Source of the DNA: a bacterium
Lineage (GTDB): Bacteria > Patescibacteriota > Minisyncoccia > UBA6257 > GWB1-50-10
Reading direction: 5' to 3'
Assembly: GCA_021815205.1 (NCBI GenBank)
Contig: JAKAHD010000006.1
Location: forward strand, 1 to 41,999
DNA: 41,999 nucleotides
The notes under the pieces were generated by a model that had not been told where the DNA came from, searched no databases, and saw only the letters and a program-made list of their open reading frames with translations. Within the stretch, counting starts at the first letter, position 1. Each line of letters starts with the position of its first letter. Shown here one piece after another: positions 4,352-26,610 of the stretch. The translations under genes were made by a program, and so were the position numbers.

Positions 4352-4546
4352 ATGCATAATTGGGATTACCCGAAAACTAAAAAAGCATGGGGAGAAGAAA
4401 CCCGCCGTCTGGAGCGGCTCCTGAACTTCGGTCTCGCGGGAGAAAAAATTGATCGGCGGGTCCTTGAGAAGTATTTGGATAAAATCAAGATGCCGGAAGA
4501 TACGCGGGCATTTTTAGAATTGCTGTTATGGGACAAGGCATTTTAA
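4352..4546 (+). CDS. Small charged protein, putative partner/antitoxin of AbiEii-like toxin
   Basis: MHNWDYPKTKKAWGEETRRLERLLNFGLAGEKIDRRVLEKYLDKIK...; overlaps the downstream nucleotidyltransferase. Confidence 0.65.
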   Translation: MHNWDYPKTKKAWGEETRRLERLLNFGLAGEKIDRRVLEKYLDKIKMPEDTRAFLELLLWDKAF

Positions 4547-5190
4547 CGCCGGATCAGAAAAAGATCATCACTCTCGTTGCCAAAAATAAGCGGATCGGCA
4601 AGATGTTCTACCTCTCGGGCGGCACCGCGTTGGCAGAGTTCTATTGCCGCCACCGCTATTCGGATGATCTTGATTTTTTTACCGGCGATCAGCCATTTCC
4701 TCAACTCGACATCGAGGCGGCAGTTGCCGGATTCAAGGCCGGCATGCATGCCGGATCGGTTGTGTATCGCAAGCTCTACGACCGAAGAATTTTTTTCCTG
4801 AGAAAGGGCCGCGAGGAGTTGAAACTGGAGTTTACTTACTTTCCGTTTACACAGATTAGACCAGCGAAAAAGCGTGGCGGCATTCTTGTGGATTCATTGG
4901 AAGATATCGCCGCTAACAAGTTCATGGCGCTCATTGACCGCATTGAGGCAAAAGATTTTGTTGATTTGTATTTCATTATTTCCGAGGGCGGCCTGCCCCT
5001 CAAAAAGATAGCGGCTCTTGCCGCAAAGAAGTTCAGTATTAAGATGGACGCGCTTGCGTTAGGCAGCGAATTAAGCAAGGTCCGCGCACTGACCGTTTTG
5101 CCTAAGATGATTAAAAAAATAAGTTTGCACGAATTGAAGGATTTTTTCAGCAATGAAGCGAAGCAATTGAAGCGCGCTGTTCTTAGATGA
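4528..5190 (+). CDS. Nucleotidyltransferase AbiEii/AbiGii toxin family protein
   Basis: NTase motif LSGGTALAEFYCRHRYSDDLDFF; AbiEii-like C-terminal region. Confidence 0.85.
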   Translation: MGQGILTPDQKKIITLVAKNKRIGKMFYLSGGTALAEFYCRHRYSDDLDFFTGDQPFPQLDIEAAVAGFKAGMHAGSVVYRKLYDRRIFFLRKGREELKLEFTYFPFTQIRPAKKRGGILVDSLEDIAANKFMALIDRIEAKDFVDLYFIISEGGLPLKKIAALAAKKFSIKMDALALGSELSKVRALTVLPKMIKKISLHELKDFFSNEAKQLKRAVLR

Positions 5191-5207
5191 ATTTTATTTA
5201 CAAACAT

Positions 5208-5244
5208 ATCGTGGTTGCGCCACGATAATTTTGCGGATAACTTT
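5208..5244. repeat. Hairpin element ATCGTGG..CCACGAT followed by AATTTTGCGGATAAC; diverged relative of the RAYT-flanking repeat
   Basis: Shares GATAATTTTG(G/C)GGATAACTTT with the repeat at 6004. Confidence 0.7.
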
Positions 5245-5253
5245 CAGAAGTGA

Positions 5254-5928
5254 ATGAGAAAGGTGTACATTGGATTGGGAGCCGCCGCGTGCTTCGCGCT
5301 CGCGCTCTTTCTTTTTCCCCGCCTGCCCGGTGATTTTATGCGTCTTGCGGGACGCACTTTCTTTCCGCACGAAGAAGTGGTCGCGGAAATTCCGCTTGGC
5401 ATCGGTAAGGTACCGCAAAGCGAAACCCGACTTCCAATGGGAGTCGGAATTCGTTCGGAGGAAAATAGCGATGTCGCCGCACATTTGAAATTATTTATCA
5501 GCGAAGTGATGGCCGGAACTTCCGCGAATTCACAGAACGAGTTTGTAGAGCTCTACAACCCGAACGATGCGGCTGTTTCCCTTACCAATTGGAGCATCAA
5601 GCGCCGGAGCGCCGCCGGAAGAGAATCGTCGTTCGTGTCCGCCTCGCGTCTCAAAGGCAAAATAATCCCGCCATTCCGCTATTTCTTGATCGCGCGCGAT
5701 GGGGGATATGGCAGTGCGGGGGTTCCTCCCGATGCGGTGTGGCCGAAATCATACTCGTTGAACTCCGGATTTGGCGCGCTTGTGCTGTATAATCCTACTG
5801 GAGCGGTTTCCGACACATTGTTATGGAACTCGATTCCGAAGGATCAGAGCGTTGTGAGGGCGTCGTGGAATGCCTCCTCCGCGCTTGTTACGCTTCCTAT
5901 CCCCACGCCCCAAAACTCCCGCCAATAG
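5254..5928 (+). CDS. Secreted lamin-tail-domain (LTD) protein
   Basis: LFISEVMAGTSANSQNEFVELYNPNDAAVSLTNWSIKRR is LTD-like. Confidence 0.8.
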   Translation: MRKVYIGLGAAACFALALFLFPRLPGDFMRLAGRTFFPHEEVVAEIPLGIGKVPQSETRLPMGVGIRSEENSDVAAHLKLFISEVMAGTSANSQNEFVELYNPNDAAVSLTNWSIKRRSAAGRESSFVSASRLKGKIIPPFRYFLIARDGGYGSAGVPPDAVWPKSYSLNSGFGALVLYNPTGAVSDTLLWNSIPKDQSVVRASWNASSALVTLPIPTPQNSRQ

Positions 5929-5932
5929 TCCC

Positions 5933-5982
5933 ATTAAGGGTGTCCAACCTCCTTAATTTTAAGGAGGTTGGACACCCTTAAT
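5933..5982. repeat. Palindrome family A, 24-bp arms, 2-nt loop
   Basis: ATTAAGGGTGTCCAACCTCCTTAA-TT-TTAAGGAGGTTGGACACCCTTAAT. Confidence 0.9.
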
Positions 5983-6003
5983 ATACCTTTAATGGGAGAA
6001 AGA

Positions 6004-6038
6004 TTATCAGAGCACGGCTCTGATAATTTTGGGGATAA
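6004..6038. repeat. 35-bp direct repeat (left copy) with hairpin, flanking the tandem RAYT genes
   Basis: TTATCAGAGCACGGCTCTGATAATTTTGGGGATAA, identical to 7666-7700. Confidence 0.95.
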
Positions 6039-6085
6039 CTTTTTCGGAGCATCGAAATGCGTAATGTTACACTAGAAACATACCG

Positions 6086-6856
6086 ATGAAACGTCCCAGA
6101 TTTGCCGAGAACGGAATATATCACGTTTATAATCAAGGCATTGAAAACAAGGTTCTGTTCAAAACTGAGCAAGATTATTTGAGGTTTATTCACGATCTCT
6201 TCGAGTTTAATGATACACACCACTCCTCAAACTTCTCTTATCGATTCAGAAAGGATCCCACAAGGGTGATGGGCATAAACGCCCCGTATTTTGTTCGGGA
6301 GTTGCGGCACACAAACGAGCCGCGTGAACTCTTAGTGGATATTCTTGGGTTCGTGCTGATGCCGAACCATTTTCATCTCCTCTTGCGGGAGAAGAAGAGG
6401 GGAGGCATCACGAAGTTTATGCATCGGCTCGGTACGGGATACGCGCTTCACTTCAATCAAAGCCACAAACACGAAGGAAGCATTTTTCACCGAAGATTTG
6501 CATCGGTCCGCCTCGAAGGAGGCGAGTCTCTCCACCATCTTCTCTGTTATATCCATGCAGACCCACTCACTCTGAATGCGGCGCCCTCCGATCCGGTAAG
6601 TTTTTTGAACTCGTATCGTTGGAGCAGCCACCTCGACTACTGCGGATGGAACAATTTTCCTTCCGTGACCCAGCGCGATCTCATCCTCGATTTTTTCGGC
6701 GGGGAGGAACAATATAAAAAATCGATCAGCGAATGGGTGCAAGAAAAGGAAAAACATACGGGAAAGATACGCGATGTGCTTCTCGAGAAAGTCATAGCAC
6801 TATTCTTATTCGTAATGGTAGAACTTGAATGGGCGTTTGATCTCATTCTTTCATGA
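6086..6856 (+). CDS. REP-associated tyrosine transposase (RAYT; Y1/IS200-like HUH transposase)
   Basis: MKRPRFAENGIYHVYNQGIENKVLF; HUH motif LMPNHFHLLLRE; RRFASVRLEGGESLHHLLCYIHADPL. Confidence 0.9.
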   Translation: MKRPRFAENGIYHVYNQGIENKVLFKTEQDYLRFIHDLFEFNDTHHSSNFSYRFRKDPTRVMGINAPYFVRELRHTNEPRELLVDILGFVLMPNHFHLLLREKKRGGITKFMHRLGTGYALHFNQSHKHEGSIFHRRFASVRLEGGESLHHLLCYIHADPLTLNAAPSDPVSFLNSYRWSSHLDYCGWNNFPSVTQRDLILDFFGGEEQYKKSISEWVQEKEKHTGKIRDVLLEKVIALFLFVMVELEWAFDLILS

Positions 6857-7566
6857 AAAAACCAGCATTCGTACAGAACGGTATTTACCACGTCTATAAT
6901 CGCGGCGTGGAAAAAAGAAATATTTTTCTTGACACTGCCGATCGGTACAGATTTGTGCAAAGCCTGATCGAATTTAATAGTGATATGCCAGCGGATAATT
7001 TGTATTATCACTTTTCTCGCAAAGAGCAGAAAATCGAACCCCGCCGCTTGAGAGGGGAAAGAGAGTTGGGAAAACCACTCGTCAATATTTTTGCATTTTG
7101 TTTAATGTTGAATCATTTCCATCTTATGGTGCAGCAGGTAAGTGAGAATGGTGTAGTAGCATTCATGCAGAAATTGGGAACCGGATACACGAAGTATTTT
7201 AATACGAAGCACGAAAGAGTCGGGCACCTCTTTCAGGGGAGGTTTAAGGCAACGCATGTAGCTACGCATGCTCATCTTTTGCATCTCCCCCTCTATATTC
7301 ATTGCAACCCGTTAGATTCAGAATTCCCAGAATGGCGAGATTATCAAAACCTCGCTTCGCTCGACTGGGAAAAGGCGATGGAATTTTTGGAAAAGTATCG
7401 GTGGAGCAGTTATTTGGATTACATGGGGAAAGAGAATTTTCCGGAAGTGATTCATAAGGAGTTTCTCACAGAACTTTTCGGCGATGCCGCACATTATAAG
7501 AAGGAAATGGGAAAATGGCTTAAGGGAGGGAGAAACGCGATGAGTTTGCTTGAAGAATTCACTTGA
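6853..7566 (+). CDS. Second REP-associated tyrosine transposase paralog (Y1/HUH)
   Basis: MKKPAFVQNGIYHVYNRGVEKRNIF; CLMLNHFHLMVQQ; YTKYFNTKHERVGHLFQGRFKATHV; ATGA overlap with upstream paralog. Confidence 0.9.
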   Translation: MKKPAFVQNGIYHVYNRGVEKRNIFLDTADRYRFVQSLIEFNSDMPADNLYYHFSRKEQKIEPRRLRGERELGKPLVNIFAFCLMLNHFHLMVQQVSENGVVAFMQKLGTGYTKYFNTKHERVGHLFQGRFKATHVATHAHLLHLPLYIHCNPLDSEFPEWRDYQNLASLDWEKAMEFLEKYRWSSYLDYMGKENFPEVIHKEFLTELFGDAAHYKKEMGKWLKGGRNAMSLLEEFT

Positions 7567-7599
7567 TCGTGAGGCGATGAGGCACCGAACCATGGTTCT

Positions 7600-7647
7600 C
7601 TATCGAAGTTCAACTTCACTATTCCTAGTGAAGTTGAACTTCGATAG
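7600..7647. repeat. Palindrome, 21-bp arms (family A-like CGAAGTTCAACTTCACT/AGTGAAGTTGAACTTCG)
   Basis: CTATCGAAGTTCAACTTCACT-ATTCCT-AGTGAAGTTGAACTTCGATAG. Confidence 0.9.
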
Positions 7648-7665
7648 AGGGGTAATCAGACATTT

Positions 7666-7700
7666 TTATCAGAGCACGGCTCTGATAATTTTGGGGATAA
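7666..7700. repeat. 35-bp direct repeat (right copy) flanking tandem RAYT genes
   Basis: Identical to 6004-6038. Confidence 0.95.
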
Positions 7701-7840
7701 AAAGGATTGAAGAATTGTGCTCGAGTTCTAGAATAGAAGTAGTTTTCGAGGACAAGGAGCAGCTGTATAAAGATGCAAAATCCGGTATAACAAAAAGCAG
7801 ATTTTTTGTTATGCTGGTTTTGTCTCTTCTTAATTTTGAA

Positions 7841-8419
7841 ATGGATATTGTGCAAAATACCCCTCCCGTTCAAGCTCCCGAGGGGGGCGGAACGAAAGGG
7901 AAGAAAAAATTCTGGAAGTTCTTTATCCCGTTTCTCGCGCTTGTGGTCATTGTGGCCGCAGGTTCTTTCGCGTGGGTGAATTATTTAAGCCCCGAGGCGA
8001 AGCGGGCACAGGAAACGAAAGCGAATCTCGAGAAGTTCAATGCGGGGATGCAGGCATACGAAGACGCGATGCGCGCCGATACCTACGGCGGGAAGACGCC
8101 CGAGGAGACGCTTCGGATGTTTATTGATGCGCTGAAGAAAAACGACGTTGAGCTCGCGAGCAAGTATTTTATGCTCGATACGAATTCGCAAAGTCCTGAT
8201 TATTTGACGAGAAGAAAATGGGAGAATGCTTTAACCGAAGTACAAACGCAAGGAAAGTTGGTTAGTACGATTGAACTGTTGGAAAAAGCAAAACCCGCTG
8301 GGTCGGTTATGAAAAATTATTTTGGCTTTGAGATCAGAGACGACTTAGGAAATTTATTGTCAGACATAGGATTCGAACTTAATAAGTATTCCAATGTCTG
8401 GAAAATAGAAAGTTTGTAA
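7841..8419 (+). CDS. Membrane-anchored hypothetical protein
   Basis: MDIVQNTPPVQAPEGGGTKGKKKFWKFFIPFLALVVIVAAGSFAWV: single TM then soluble domain; the track's 7550 start is too long. Confidence 0.65.
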   Translation: MDIVQNTPPVQAPEGGGTKGKKKFWKFFIPFLALVVIVAAGSFAWVNYLSPEAKRAQETKANLEKFNAGMQAYEDAMRADTYGGKTPEETLRMFIDALKKNDVELASKYFMLDTNSQSPDYLTRRKWENALTEVQTQGKLVSTIELLEKAKPAGSVMKNYFGFEIRDDLGNLLSDIGFELNKYSNVWKIESL

Positions 8420-13590: not shown

Positions 13591-13624
13591 CCACGGGTGC
13601 TATGAGGCATCATAGCACCCGTGG
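13591..13624. repeat. Palindrome family G, copy 1 (CCACGGGTGCTATGA-GGCA-TCATAGCACCCGTGG)
   Basis: Perfect 15-bp arms just after the CDS stop. Confidence 0.9.
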
Positions 13625-13674: not shown

Positions 13675-14127
13675 ATGACGCATAACGACGCGACGAGAAA
13701 AATAAAAGGAAGAGAAATATATATTCCTCCCGTCTCTCATTATTCCACGCATAAAGAATGGGAGCGCGCCGCGTGGGAGATACTCACACAATCGCCACAT
13801 ATTCTCGATGCACTTATGAGTCCGTACGAACGCCGCATTTTGGTAATGCGCGCAGCGATCGTTCATAGGGTTCACTTAGGAAAGAGTTATCGCGAAATAG
13901 GGGACGAATTATGGTGTGCTCCGCAAACCGTGAGCAGTATAAAGAAGTCGCTCAAGGAGAGGCAGTATCGCAGTTATTGGCAACGGGGAAAAACAGAACG
14001 GAGAAGATACCCCTCGTTTTCGAGAGCACCGGGTTCAGAGCCACACACCAGAATTGTCAATATGTCCTTCAAGGACACGGGTGCTATGAGGCATCATAGC
14101 ACCCGTGGCATGACCAAAAGGAGGTAA
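13675..14127 (+). CDS. TrpR/YerC-like helix-turn-helix protein
   Basis: LMSPYERRILVMRAAIVHRVHLGKSYREIGDELWCAPQTVSSIKKSLKER is TrpR-like HTH. Confidence 0.7.
   Translation: MTHNDATRKIKGREIYIPPVSHYSTHKEWERAAWEILTQSPHILDALMSPYERRILVMRAAIVHRVHLGKSYREIGDELWCAPQTVSSIKKSLKERQYRSYWQRGKTERRRYPSFSRAPGSEPHTRIVNMSFKDTGAMRHHSTRGMTKRR
14076..14107. repeat. Palindrome family G, copy 2, within the 3' end of the HTH CDS
   Basis: CACGGGTGCTATGAGGCATCATAGCACCCGTG, same core as 13591-13624. Confidence 0.9.
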
Positions 14128-15497: not shown

Positions 15498-15539
15498 CTG
15501 TGCGAGGTTGAACCTCCACGGAGGTTCAACCTCGCACAG
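15498..15539. repeat. Palindrome CTGTGCGAGGTTGAACCTCC-AC-GGAGGTTCAACCTCGCACAG (family A-like)
   Basis: 20-bp perfect arms. Confidence 0.9.
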
Positions 15540-16162: not shown

Positions 16163-16174
16163 CTCCTCCTTTTT

Positions 16175-16215
16175 CTAAGGGTGTCCAACCTCCTAAGGAG
16201 GTTGGACACCCTTAG
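16175..16215. repeat. Palindrome family A, 20-bp arms
   Basis: CTAAGGGTGTCCAACCTCCT-A-AGGAGGTTGGACACCCTTAG. Confidence 0.95.
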
Positions 16216-16268
16216 AGGGCTATTAGAAATTCCCGACCAAGCTTTGCGGTTTGGTCGGTTTCTTTTGT

Positions 16269-16280: not shown

Positions 16281-16817
16281 ATGAGAGAGATCGCGGTGGC
16301 GTTGCACAACATACGGAGTTTGCATAACGTCGGGTCGATATTCAGGACCGCCGACGGGGCGGGGGTCTCCAAGATATATCTGTGTGGTATTACTCCAACG
16401 CCGCTTGATCGGTTCGGAAAAATGCGCCCAGAACTTGCGAAAGTTGCTTTAGGCGCGGAACGGAACGTGCCGTGGGAACATTCCGCTTCGACGGCGCGGC
16501 TTCTCAGAAGACTTAAAAAGGAAGGGTATTGCATCTACGCCCTCGAGCAAACGGAACATTCCGTACCGTACGACGCGCCGAAACTTGCGCGCGGCGCAAA
16601 GAAGATCGCGCTTGTTTTGGGTGACGAGGTGCGGGGGATTCCGCTTTCGATTTTGAAGATATCCGACGCAATTCTTGAAATTCCCATGTATGGGAAGAAG
16701 GAGTCATTGAACGTGAGTGTGGCGTTCGGGATCGCGGTGTTCTCATTAATAAATCGCGCCCCACACCGTACTCTTCCTCGCTCGGGCGCTCCGGCGCTCC
16801 GTCATGGGTCACGGTAA
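16281..16817 (+). CDS. SpoU/TrmH-family RNA methyltransferase
   Basis: VALHNIRSLHNVGSIFRTADGAGVSKIYLCG; LVLGDEVRGIP; IPMYGKKESLNVSVAFGIAVF. Confidence 0.9.
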   Translation: MREIAVALHNIRSLHNVGSIFRTADGAGVSKIYLCGITPTPLDRFGKMRPELAKVALGAERNVPWEHSASTARLLRRLKKEGYCIYALEQTEHSVPYDAPKLARGAKKIALVLGDEVRGIPLSILKISDAILEIPMYGKKESLNVSVAFGIAVFSLINRAPHRTLPRSGAPALRHGSR

Positions 16818-16853
16818 GGGTGTCCAACCTCCTAAGGAGGTTGGACACCCTTA
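16815..16853. repeat. Palindrome family A, 19-bp arms; supplies the TAA stop of the methyltransferase
   Basis: TAAGGGTGTCCAACCTCCT-A-AGGAGGTTGGACACCCTTA. Confidence 0.95.
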
Positions 16854-23231: not shown

Positions 23232-24221
23232 ATGTTAACCGATAAACTCAAACTCAATCCCAAGCTCTTCGATAAAGATATCGAGATGAGGCCTACCCGC
23301 GATGGGTACGGCGAGGGGCTTGTGCTTGCGGCGCGGGAACACCAGAACGTGGTGGCGCTCACCGCCGACCTTACCGAATCAACGAGAACCGAGGCGTTTG
23401 CCAATGAATTTCCAGAGCGGTTTTTCGAGGTGGGTGTTGCGGAACAGAATATGGCGACAATTGCGGCGGGCTTGGGCATTACGGGGAAGATCCCTTTTAT
23501 CGCTTCGTATGCGACATTCTCTCCCGGAAGGAATTACGAGCAAATCAGGACGACGATCGCCTACAACAATTCGAACGTAAAAATCGCGGGGCATCATGCT
23601 GGGATTTCCGTGGGACCCGACGGCGCGACCCATCAGGCGACTGAGGATATCGCGATCATGCGGGCGATGCCGAACACAAAAGTATTCGTACCCTGCGACG
23701 CGATCGAGGCGCGGAAAGCGACGCTCGCCGCCGCAAAAATCTGGGGCCCCGTATACCTTCGTTTCGGCAGGGAAAAGAGTCCCGTAATTACCACGGAGAC
23801 GACACCCTTTACGCCCGGGAAGGCGGAGGTGTTCTGGAGATCGAGGAAACCGAAAGTGGCGATTATCGCCTGCGGCATACTTGTATATCGCGCGCTCCTT
23901 GCGGCGCGGGAACTCGAGAAGCGTAAGATTGGCGCCGTTGTCGTAAACAATCACTCAATAAAACCGATTGATGAGAAGACCATACTTGAGGTTGCGAAAC
24001 AGACGGGCGCGGTCGTGACCACGGAGGAGCATCAAGTAAACGGAGGGCTCGGCGGTGCGGTTGTGGAAGTCCTCGCGAAACATTACCCCGTTCCGATGGA
24101 GTTTGTGGGACTTCACGATACCTTCGGAGAATCAGGCAAGCCGGAGGAACTCATTGAGAAGTACGGGATGGGAGTGAAGGATATCGTAGCCGCGGTGAAG
24201 AAAGTGATGGGGAGAAAATAA
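23232..24221 (+). CDS. Transketolase, C-terminal subunit
   Basis: MRPTRDGYGEGLVLAAREHQNVVALTADLTEST; FFEVGVAEQNMATIAAGLGITGKIPFIASYATF. Confidence 0.93.
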   Translation: MLTDKLKLNPKLFDKDIEMRPTRDGYGEGLVLAAREHQNVVALTADLTESTRTEAFANEFPERFFEVGVAEQNMATIAAGLGITGKIPFIASYATFSPGRNYEQIRTTIAYNNSNVKIAGHHAGISVGPDGATHQATEDIAIMRAMPNTKVFVPCDAIEARKATLAAAKIWGPVYLRFGREKSPVITTETTPFTPGKAEVFWRSRKPKVAIIACGILVYRALLAARELEKRKIGAVVVNNHSIKPIDEKTILEVAKQTGAVVTTEEHQVNGGLGGAVVEVLAKHYPVPMEFVGLHDTFGESGKPEELIEKYGMGVKDIVAAVKKVMGRK

Positions 24222-25339: not shown

Positions 25340-26575
25340 ATGGATCACTTCGAGTACGTGGGGAAAATTCTCGGGGTTGATGCGATGTCGCTCATGAACC
25401 TCGATGCCGCGATGGAAGCGCGTACGGGGAAGAAAAATGTGTTGCGGAATATTGCGGAGCGCAACGCGGAGATGATAGAGGTCACCCTCGCTACCTTGAA
25501 TAGCGCGAACCACTCCGCGCCTCATATAAGGAGCGTGCTTCGTCAAACCATCTTAAACCACGAGAAACACCTCATGGGGTTCCTGGATAAAGTCGAAGGG
25601 GAGACCGAGTTCGAAAAAGCCGCGAAGCTGGCGCGGAAGATCGCGACGTGCGGAAAAGGCTTTTTCTTGAAGAAAGAGCTTGCAAAAGAGATATTGGAAA
25701 AGAGGAAGCCGGAGAGGCTGCTGACATACCTTCAAGTGAAGACCGTAGATGAGGCGCTCCAAAGGCACGACGTCACGGAACTTTTTAGCGCGCTTCGGTT
25801 TATCGAGTCCGACGAATGGATGCATGAAACGTTCGATATCGCGTATGGGGATTTCACGGCGCGCGACTTCGAGGAGCGAGATATCGAAATTTCCGTCTTG
25901 GGGCCGGAATGGAAGACGGTCTCTGAGACGTTTGTAAAAAAGAAGCATCACAACGTGAGCCATCTGAAGGAGTTCGGGGTGATCTTCGTGAACCCGATCA
26001 AGGAGAATATTCCGGGAAAATTTCTCCGGGATTTCGCGTTGCTTCTGCATTACTTCCACGAGATCGATTTTTATTCAAGACTTTTCAGGAGGTATTCCTC
26101 CGCACCCGATTTCGCGGCGAACTTCAAGAAACTCTTAAGAGGCGATGTCCCCGAAATATACAAAACGAATGCAGGCGAGTGGCTTGTGGTGCCGCGTTAC
26201 TTGTGGAAGATCAATCCCGAAGATCCGCGGCTATATCTCCCGCGCGTGAATCCAGAGTCCCTACATTGGGCGCGGGGCGAGCGGGATCTCACGTCCTTTG
26301 CGGCGCCCGAAGCGCATCTTGATCTCAAGATCTGGCATAACCTCGACTGGGTGGGCGGTAGCTTCGCCGATGGGGGAGAAGAGATCGTAAGTTTTGATCT
26401 TGAAGACAACGCGATGTCGCTCGTGTCCTTTATGGAAGGGAAAGATGAGTCGTTCAATTATCACCAGCGCGAGAGCATGTGGACGAAGCTCTTCGAGGAG
26501 TACGCAGGCGGGGAAGAGAAAATGGAGAAACTCCTTATAGGACATTTTAATGAAGGAATCATTGCATCTTCGTAG
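25340..26575 (+). CDS. Conserved-looking hypothetical protein inside the carbon-metabolism cluster
   Basis: ORF from MDHFEYVGKILGVDAMSLMNLDAAMEARTGKKNVLRNIAERN, closely downstream of PfkB; no family recognised. Confidence 0.75.
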   Translation: MDHFEYVGKILGVDAMSLMNLDAAMEARTGKKNVLRNIAERNAEMIEVTLATLNSANHSAPHIRSVLRQTILNHEKHLMGFLDKVEGETEFEKAAKLARKIATCGKGFFLKKELAKEILEKRKPERLLTYLQVKTVDEALQRHDVTELFSALRFIESDEWMHETFDIAYGDFTARDFEERDIEISVLGPEWKTVSETFVKKKHHNVSHLKEFGVIFVNPIKENIPGKFLRDFALLLHYFHEIDFYSRLFRRYSSAPDFAANFKKLLRGDVPEIYKTNAGEWLVVPRYLWKINPEDPRLYLPRVNPESLHWARGERDLTSFAAPEAHLDLKIWHNLDWVGGSFADGGEEIVSFDLEDNAMSLVSFMEGKDESFNYHQRESMWTKLFEEYAGGEEKMEKLLIGHFNEGIIASS

Positions 26576-26610
26576 GGTGTCCAACCTCCTAAGGAGGTTG
26601 GACACCCTAC
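26572..26610. repeat. Palindrome family A, 19-bp arms; overlaps the stop codon of the preceding CDS
   Basis: GTAGGGTGTCCAACCTCCT-A-AGGAGGTTGGACACCCTAC. Confidence 0.95.

Follow-up and report, generated by a model that had tools for sequence, protein, structure and literature searches.

The locus described here consists of two genes for single-stranded-DNA "REP" transposases and a gene for a membrane-anchored partner, set among small DNA hairpins in the tiny genome of a member of the Patescibacteria. It is a REPtron-like variant of a known housekeeping-transposase system and not an ordinary jumping gene, and we treat it as a variant with the workings of a REPtron, without claiming for it membership of the curated RAYT family. 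We think it quite probable that these are RAYT (TnpA-REP type) genes lying among their own REP hairpins, the binding and cleavage of the hairpins, the role of a conserved foot and the active enzyme being putative parts of this reading. It is supported by the predicted fold, the motifs, the dispersal of the REPs, the covariation of their stems, their presence and absence at orthologous sites, the bracketing by hairpins and the linkage to the LTD gene. Against it stand the absence of a GT[AG]G foot, the direct orientation of the flanking REPs, NCBIfam scores below the cut-off and the presence of only five units in its own genome.

Organization of the locus

The features of the window, that is, the whole stretch of 41,999 nucleotides that was analysed, are collected in Table 1. 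The 35-mer TTATCAGAGC-ACG-GCTCTGATAATTTTGGGGATAA occurs in identical copies at 6004–6038 and 7666–7700, the chance expectation for one such pair in 42 kb being about 1e-12. A third, diverged copy at about 5206–5243 (66% identity) possesses another hairpin and exactly the same tail. All three had been described in the initial annotation and are confirmed. All three are built as TATC-stem-GATA and continue with ATTTTG[GC]GGATAA; allowing up to three mismatches, the window contains three matches to the tail where 0.46 would be expected, and none of 100 shuffles reached this number. The two Y1/HUH genes lie between the identical repeats, and the short LTD gene between the diverged and the first identical repeat; the earlier description of RAYT-type transposases bracketed by hairpin repeats is borne out, and the repeats occur elsewhere too. 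Located 27–29 bp past the REP tail and upstream of RAYT1, the −10-like sequence TGTTACACT is kept in this genome (G000) and in G023 and G024, and is presumably part of a promoter.

Table 1. Features of the REP/RAYT locus, in window coordinates
Feature	Position	Strand	Remarks
REP unit, diverged hairpin TATCGTGG-TTGCG-CCACGATA and tail ATTTTGCGGATAACTT	5207–5243	+	10 bp upstream of the LTD start codon; tail exact
LTD protein, 224 aa	5254–5928	+	PF00932, 4.5e-16
F2 perfect palindrome, 24-bp arms	5933–5982		G000-specific dispersed family; 21 bp before REP
REP unit, hairpin TTATCAGAGC-ACG-GCTCTGATAA and tail ATTTTGGGGATAACTT	6004–6041	+	covariation supports the stem
−10-like element TGTTACACT, putative promoter	6065–6073	+	read by eye
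RAYT1, Y1/HUH transposase of the LTD-linked clade	6086–6856	+	C-terminal hydrophobic helix; HUH and Tyr kept
RAYT2, Y1/HUH transposase of another lineage	6853–7566	+	3 of 65 conserved residues changed; without hydrophobic tail
F1 perfect palindrome, 24-bp arms	7598–7649		G000-specific dispersed family; 16 bp before REP
Neighbour gene	7607–8419	+	marks the syntenic place of the locus
REP unit, 35 bp identical to 6004–6038	7666–7700	+	sequence identity
Giant LTD protein, 1663 aa	8592–13583	+	syntenic neighbour downstream

The part of the neighbour gene (7607–8419) that is conserved in relatives comprises roughly residues 83–270 of this reading, so that its true start probably lies further downstream. 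Just upstream of the locus is a gene for an AbiEii-like nucleotidyltransferase (4528–5190; PF08843, 4.6e-18), preceded by a 70-aa ORF without an NCBIfam match.

Two longer perfect palindromes (5933–5982 and 7598–7649) also bracket the RAYT pair, both from further dispersed families. The 442 kb of G000 that were read contain about 100 perfect palindromes with arms of at least 11 bp. Many belong to families, with 3 to 13 members each, such as GGTGCTATGCTATAGCATAGCACC, GGTGTTATGACGCGTCATAACACC and ACTAACTTATGTGACGATCGTCACATAAGTTAGT; none of the families checked occurs in the 402 kb of G023 that were read. Several sit in mosaics and some directly after stop codons. The window holds others at 16174–16216, 16815–16853, 26572–26610, 13591–13624, 14076–14107 and 15498–15539.

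Dispersal and turnover of the REP units

The repeats of the window are REP elements. A genome-wide pattern search for hairpin plus tail, the check proposed in the initial annotation, returned 5 units in G000, 4 in G022, 7 in G023 and 18 in G024, and none in the reversed control. Those of G000 (735 kb) are the three at the locus and two dispersed ones, C3:23715 and C8:3846–3878; the F2-REP pairing of the window recurs at C3 (about 23653–23747). Same-genus relatives have a commoner hairpin, TATCGAGGC..GCCTCGATA, with about 19, 30 and 61 copies in G022, G023 and G024, and among these four genomes the window hairpin TATCAGAGC is present only in G000. Since the hairpin of the relatives differs and the tail is partly the same (some of their dispersed hairpins carry the window's tail), the lower stem and the tail are retained and the upper stem varies by species. 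In 17 aligned units three base pairs have changed on both sides and 99.3% of cells are paired, a value matched in none of 500 shuffles.

The genomes compared are probably all metagenome assemblies, and the script-based counts sampled about 60% of G000, half of G023 and a quarter of G024, with ORFs called by script. On this basis 40 of 42 sampled hairpins in G024 lie outside ORFs, though 88.5% of the DNA was called coding; the figure for G023, where spurious antisense frames are among the called ORFs, is 19 of 30. Hairpins close to one another form hairpin-tail-hairpin pairs, spaced in nearly all cases by 37–38 nt. The 37-nt dimers of the sister species, of which the window has none, are flanked on the outside by CAATC/GATTG, and because the stems are near-symmetric their internal orientation rests on these flanks. 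At two orthologous sites G024 has a hairpin where G023 has none, and one of these sites shows a clean gap of about 100 bp.

One might ask whether these hairpins are ordinary transcription signals, parts of terminators or promoters, repeated by chance. Their intergenic position, the TTTT after the hairpin and the −10-like element after the tail at RAYT1 would fit, but stems that are species-specific and covary, dimers of fixed 37-nt spacing, a tail continuing as GGGGATAACTT, orthologous sites both filled and empty, and clustering around RAYT genes make this very improbable.

Bracketing by hairpins is not peculiar to this locus. Among 89 patescibacterial and related RAYT loci, those with enough flank, 31 have the same hairpin on both sides, as against 1 of 236 control ORFs; in the bracketed relatives the hairpins are in the same orientation in 19 cases and inverted in 9. 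The tail motif was found at only 12 of 79 other RAYT loci and is thus not general. Hairpins with 9-bp stems numbered 128 within 300 bp of a RAYT and 131 in much larger far regions. The centres of those near a RAYT favour RGTYSRACY (31/128 versus 13/131, p 0.003); the tail motif accompanies 14/128 of them and 7/131 of the other hairpins, which is no significant difference (p 0.11). In Yanofskybacteria (L122, L123) the RAYT-flanking hairpins contain CTGTGGATAA / TTATCCACAG inside the stem. On the bottom strand the foot, TTATCC[AC]CA, is similar to a DnaA box. Since no clustering of DnaA-like boxes was seen near dnaA in G000 or G023, and the tail motif is not significantly enriched near RAYTs, a link to DnaA was set aside and the likeness is noted only as such.

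The two transposases

Two related Y1/HUH transposases with an ATGA overlap had been proposed from the sequence, and indeed both ORFs are open and both products match Pfam Y1_Tnp. They are tandem and homologous, as stated, but not near-duplicates, sharing 36% identity and belonging to separate lineages. RAYT1 possesses the HUH motif (N94, H95, H97) and the catalytic Y155, and the same residues stand at the aligned positions of RAYT2. Folds were compared because no solved structure was matched at the sequence level. Foldseek was run with the AF2 model of RAYT1 only (pLDDT 85.6), and its best match was 4er8, the E. coli TnpA-REP with a REP hairpin (E 1.4e-7, TM by target 0.64), followed by the IS608 and ISDra2 transposases. 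The best NCBIfam model is REP_Tyr_transpos (NF047646), which the two proteins match at 42.1 and 31.7 bits, below its cut-off of 80.

A tree of 60 proteins groups RAYT1 with other LTD-linked proteins in a clade of ten members (support 100/97) that does not include RAYT2. A recent duplication as the origin of the pair finds no support in this tree, the two being placed in different lineages. Among the genomes seen the pair occurs only in G000, and the two-transposase unit suggested in the initial annotation is not upheld. At 65 conserved positions RAYT1 shows 14 changes, including the FQGRFK stretch and the asparagine of YIHxNP, RAYT2 three and the G023 ortholog two; the next worst after RAYT1 has seven. 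In the RAYT1 clade the proteins run on past the usual LE terminus into a hydrophobic helix, which only the G023 and G024 members lack. To judge from these sequences, RAYT1 was likely the resident enzyme; a RAYT from a different lineage would have joined it on the downstream side, and RAYT1 would have drifted afterwards.

The divergence of RAYT1 raises the matter of a relic locus, in which one or both transposases would be inactive in this species and the five REPs leftovers, a view compatible with the REPtron-like reading. Five units against 19–61 hairpins in the sister species would agree with such decay, as would the 14 of 65 aberrant columns where the next worst has seven. Both frames are open, though, HUH and Tyr are kept, RAYT2 has only 3 of 65 changes, and the identity of the 35-mers on either side of the pair speaks for copying or exchange in the recent past. 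We give a relic some, if small, probability.

For the REPtron-like locus the following mechanism is envisaged. What the Y1/HUH enzymes bind would most likely be the bottom strand in its folded form, with 5'-GTTATCCCCAAAAT ahead of the hairpin; acting in trans, they would most likely cut single-stranded DNA and rejoin it. The conserved TTATCC[AC]C presumably stands in for the GT[AG]G foot that is usual in REPs. In this way REP monomers and hairpin-tail-hairpin dimers would spread into intergenic DNA and the transposase gene would stay put. RAYT1 would represent the resident LTD-linked enzyme, losing conserved residues, and RAYT2, the later addition, would probably supply the present activity.

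The LTD partner and its association with PolX

The LTD protein is composed of an N-terminal hydrophobic helix, a disordered linker and one lamin-tail domain (AF2 pLDDT 81.6). A short LTD gene adjoins a RAYT of the RAYT1 clade in G000, G023, G025, G026, G027, G028, G034, G035 and G030, the last counted for this linkage and absent from the tree; in G024 it is on a separate contig from the RAYT, and that contig ends at a REP. None of the non-clade RAYTs in the first genome set has an adjacent short LTD gene, and in G218, from another family, an LTD gene lies next to a RAYT closer to RAYT2. The order is LTD then RAYT in G000, G023 and G034, and in G035 the genes face each other. In genus g16 a PolX-LTD pair faces the RAYT, the PolX gene overlapping the LTD gene (L206–L211); the additional protein has polymerase-beta thumb, HhH and PHP domains and corresponds to DNA polymerase X. 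This three-gene set was found at more than one chromosomal place. The idea that LTD genes are solely RAYT neighbours was discarded, longer LTD proteins (about 280–590 aa) occurring without a RAYT in many genomes.

The species' own hairpins bracket the set in G000, G034 and G035. In G027 PolX-LTD-RAYT lies between 70-bp inverted repeats (95.7% identical) and in G025 the module lies between 43-bp direct repeats (97.7% identical). REPs precede both LTD and RAYT in G023, and two G024 contigs are alike, with a further hairpin after the RAYT; in G026, G028 and G030 the motif is on one side or absent. The motif G[GT]GGATAA / TTATCC[AC]C was found near the RAYT or LTD gene in nine of ten clade genomes, with unrelated hairpins in three genera. 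These arrangements suggest that the partner LTD gene belongs to the unit and support its being a long-term passenger. With regard to the initial suggestion that LTD is cargo, it is a lasting associate, linked in ten RAYT1-clade genomes; the autonomous mobility of the whole unit is conjectural, the locus occupying the same place in several genera.

Synteny and mobility

In G000, G034 and G027 the locus lies between one and the same pair of neighbours, and in G025 and G028 it adjoins the downstream neighbour; G041 and G218 have other RAYTs there. The downstream pair (the 7607–8419 protein and the giant LTD protein; L213, L311, L369) is conserved in the family and repeatedly stands beside RAYTs of differing lineages. 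Occupation of the same place in several genera points to long residence, as published for RAYTs: RAYTs and REPtrons have been reported as stable in place (PMC2817692, PMC6006769), and REPtrons as not transposing as a unit (PMC6006769). A two-transposase transposon that became mobile only recently is unlikely, since synteny extends over much of the locus from genus to genus. In G026 and G030 (genus g16) PolX-LTD-RAYT is found elsewhere and the neighbour pair stands without the module; relocated yet intact, the set was evidently kept together through at least some relocation, which keeps unit mobility open as a candidate reading.

Such mobility would be that of a composite single-strand transposon, in which RAYT and LTD (plus PolX in g16) would be moved as one by the transposase between terminal hairpins, LTD being the cargo. 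The LTD gene does lie among or between the RAYT's own hairpins in G000, G023, G024, G034, G035, G025 and G027, and the long repeats around the module in G027 and G025 might be taken as its ends. While its position in G026 and G030, away from the neighbour locus used in G025, G027 and G028, and the differing gene orientation within genus g19 are in accord with movement, the shared location in G000, G034, G027, G025 and G028 (with another RAYT in G041 and G218) is not. Furthermore there is usually one copy per genome, the two of G025 possibly reflecting contamination, and unit transposition is contrary to the descriptions of REPtrons (PMC6006769). The search for empty sites, also proposed at the outset, gave the two REP sites filled in G024 and empty in G023 but, in the genomes compared, no empty site with joined flanks for the unit. 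We therefore consider the composite transposon quite unlikely. Similarly doubtful is a REPtron whose partner genes share the hairpin bracket, so that a transposase with a hydrophobic helix and a membrane-anchored LTD protein (with PolX in one genus) would move or be exchanged as a unit and act on single-stranded DNA at the membrane, for example on incoming DNA.

Comparison with known systems

The IS200/IS605 elements share with this locus the HUH-Y chemistry and hairpins at both ends in the same orientation, as in IS608. Unlike them, the proteins here are larger (237–256 aa), match Y1_Tnp only partially and are of low copy number, and the locus shows stable synteny and dispersed stand-alone hairpins.

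The likeness is closer to the REPtrons and REPINs of RAYT/TnpA-REP systems (PMC2817692 [Nunvar 2010], PMC3116915 [Bertels 2011], PMC6006769, PMC8266576): a Y1/HUH enzyme with the 4er8 fold, a gene stable in place and bracketed by species-specific palindromes, and, chiefly in the sister species, palindromes dispersed between genes as singles and dimers. It differs in that GT[AG]G is absent from the stem foot on either strand of the locus REPs, the element found instead being TTATCC[AC]C, some 5 nt away from the stem, and in that the flanking REPs (6004, 7666) are direct and not inverted as reported by Nunvar et al. (PMC2817692). The tandem RAYTs of two lineages, the LTD (and PolX) partner, the hydrophobic C-terminal helix and the patescibacterial host are further differences.

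TnpA-Y1 subclass 2.6, or RAYT group 5, of the Bacteroidetes (PMC6006769) resembles the present proteins in NH-x-H with YIH-x-NP, SS residues downstream and atypical secondary structures lacking GT[AG]G; ours come from another phylum, are longer and have a conserved element beside the hairpin.

In the literature searched there was no paper on REP/RAYT systems in Patescibacteria, the published work found treating other bacteria. In these reduced genomes RAYTs often stand between perfect hairpins peculiar to the locus. The hairpins change quickly from one sister species to the next, the foot is not GT[AG]G, and a partner gene is conserved. Such a partner has a direct bearing on a question still open, namely why genomes retain RAYT genes.
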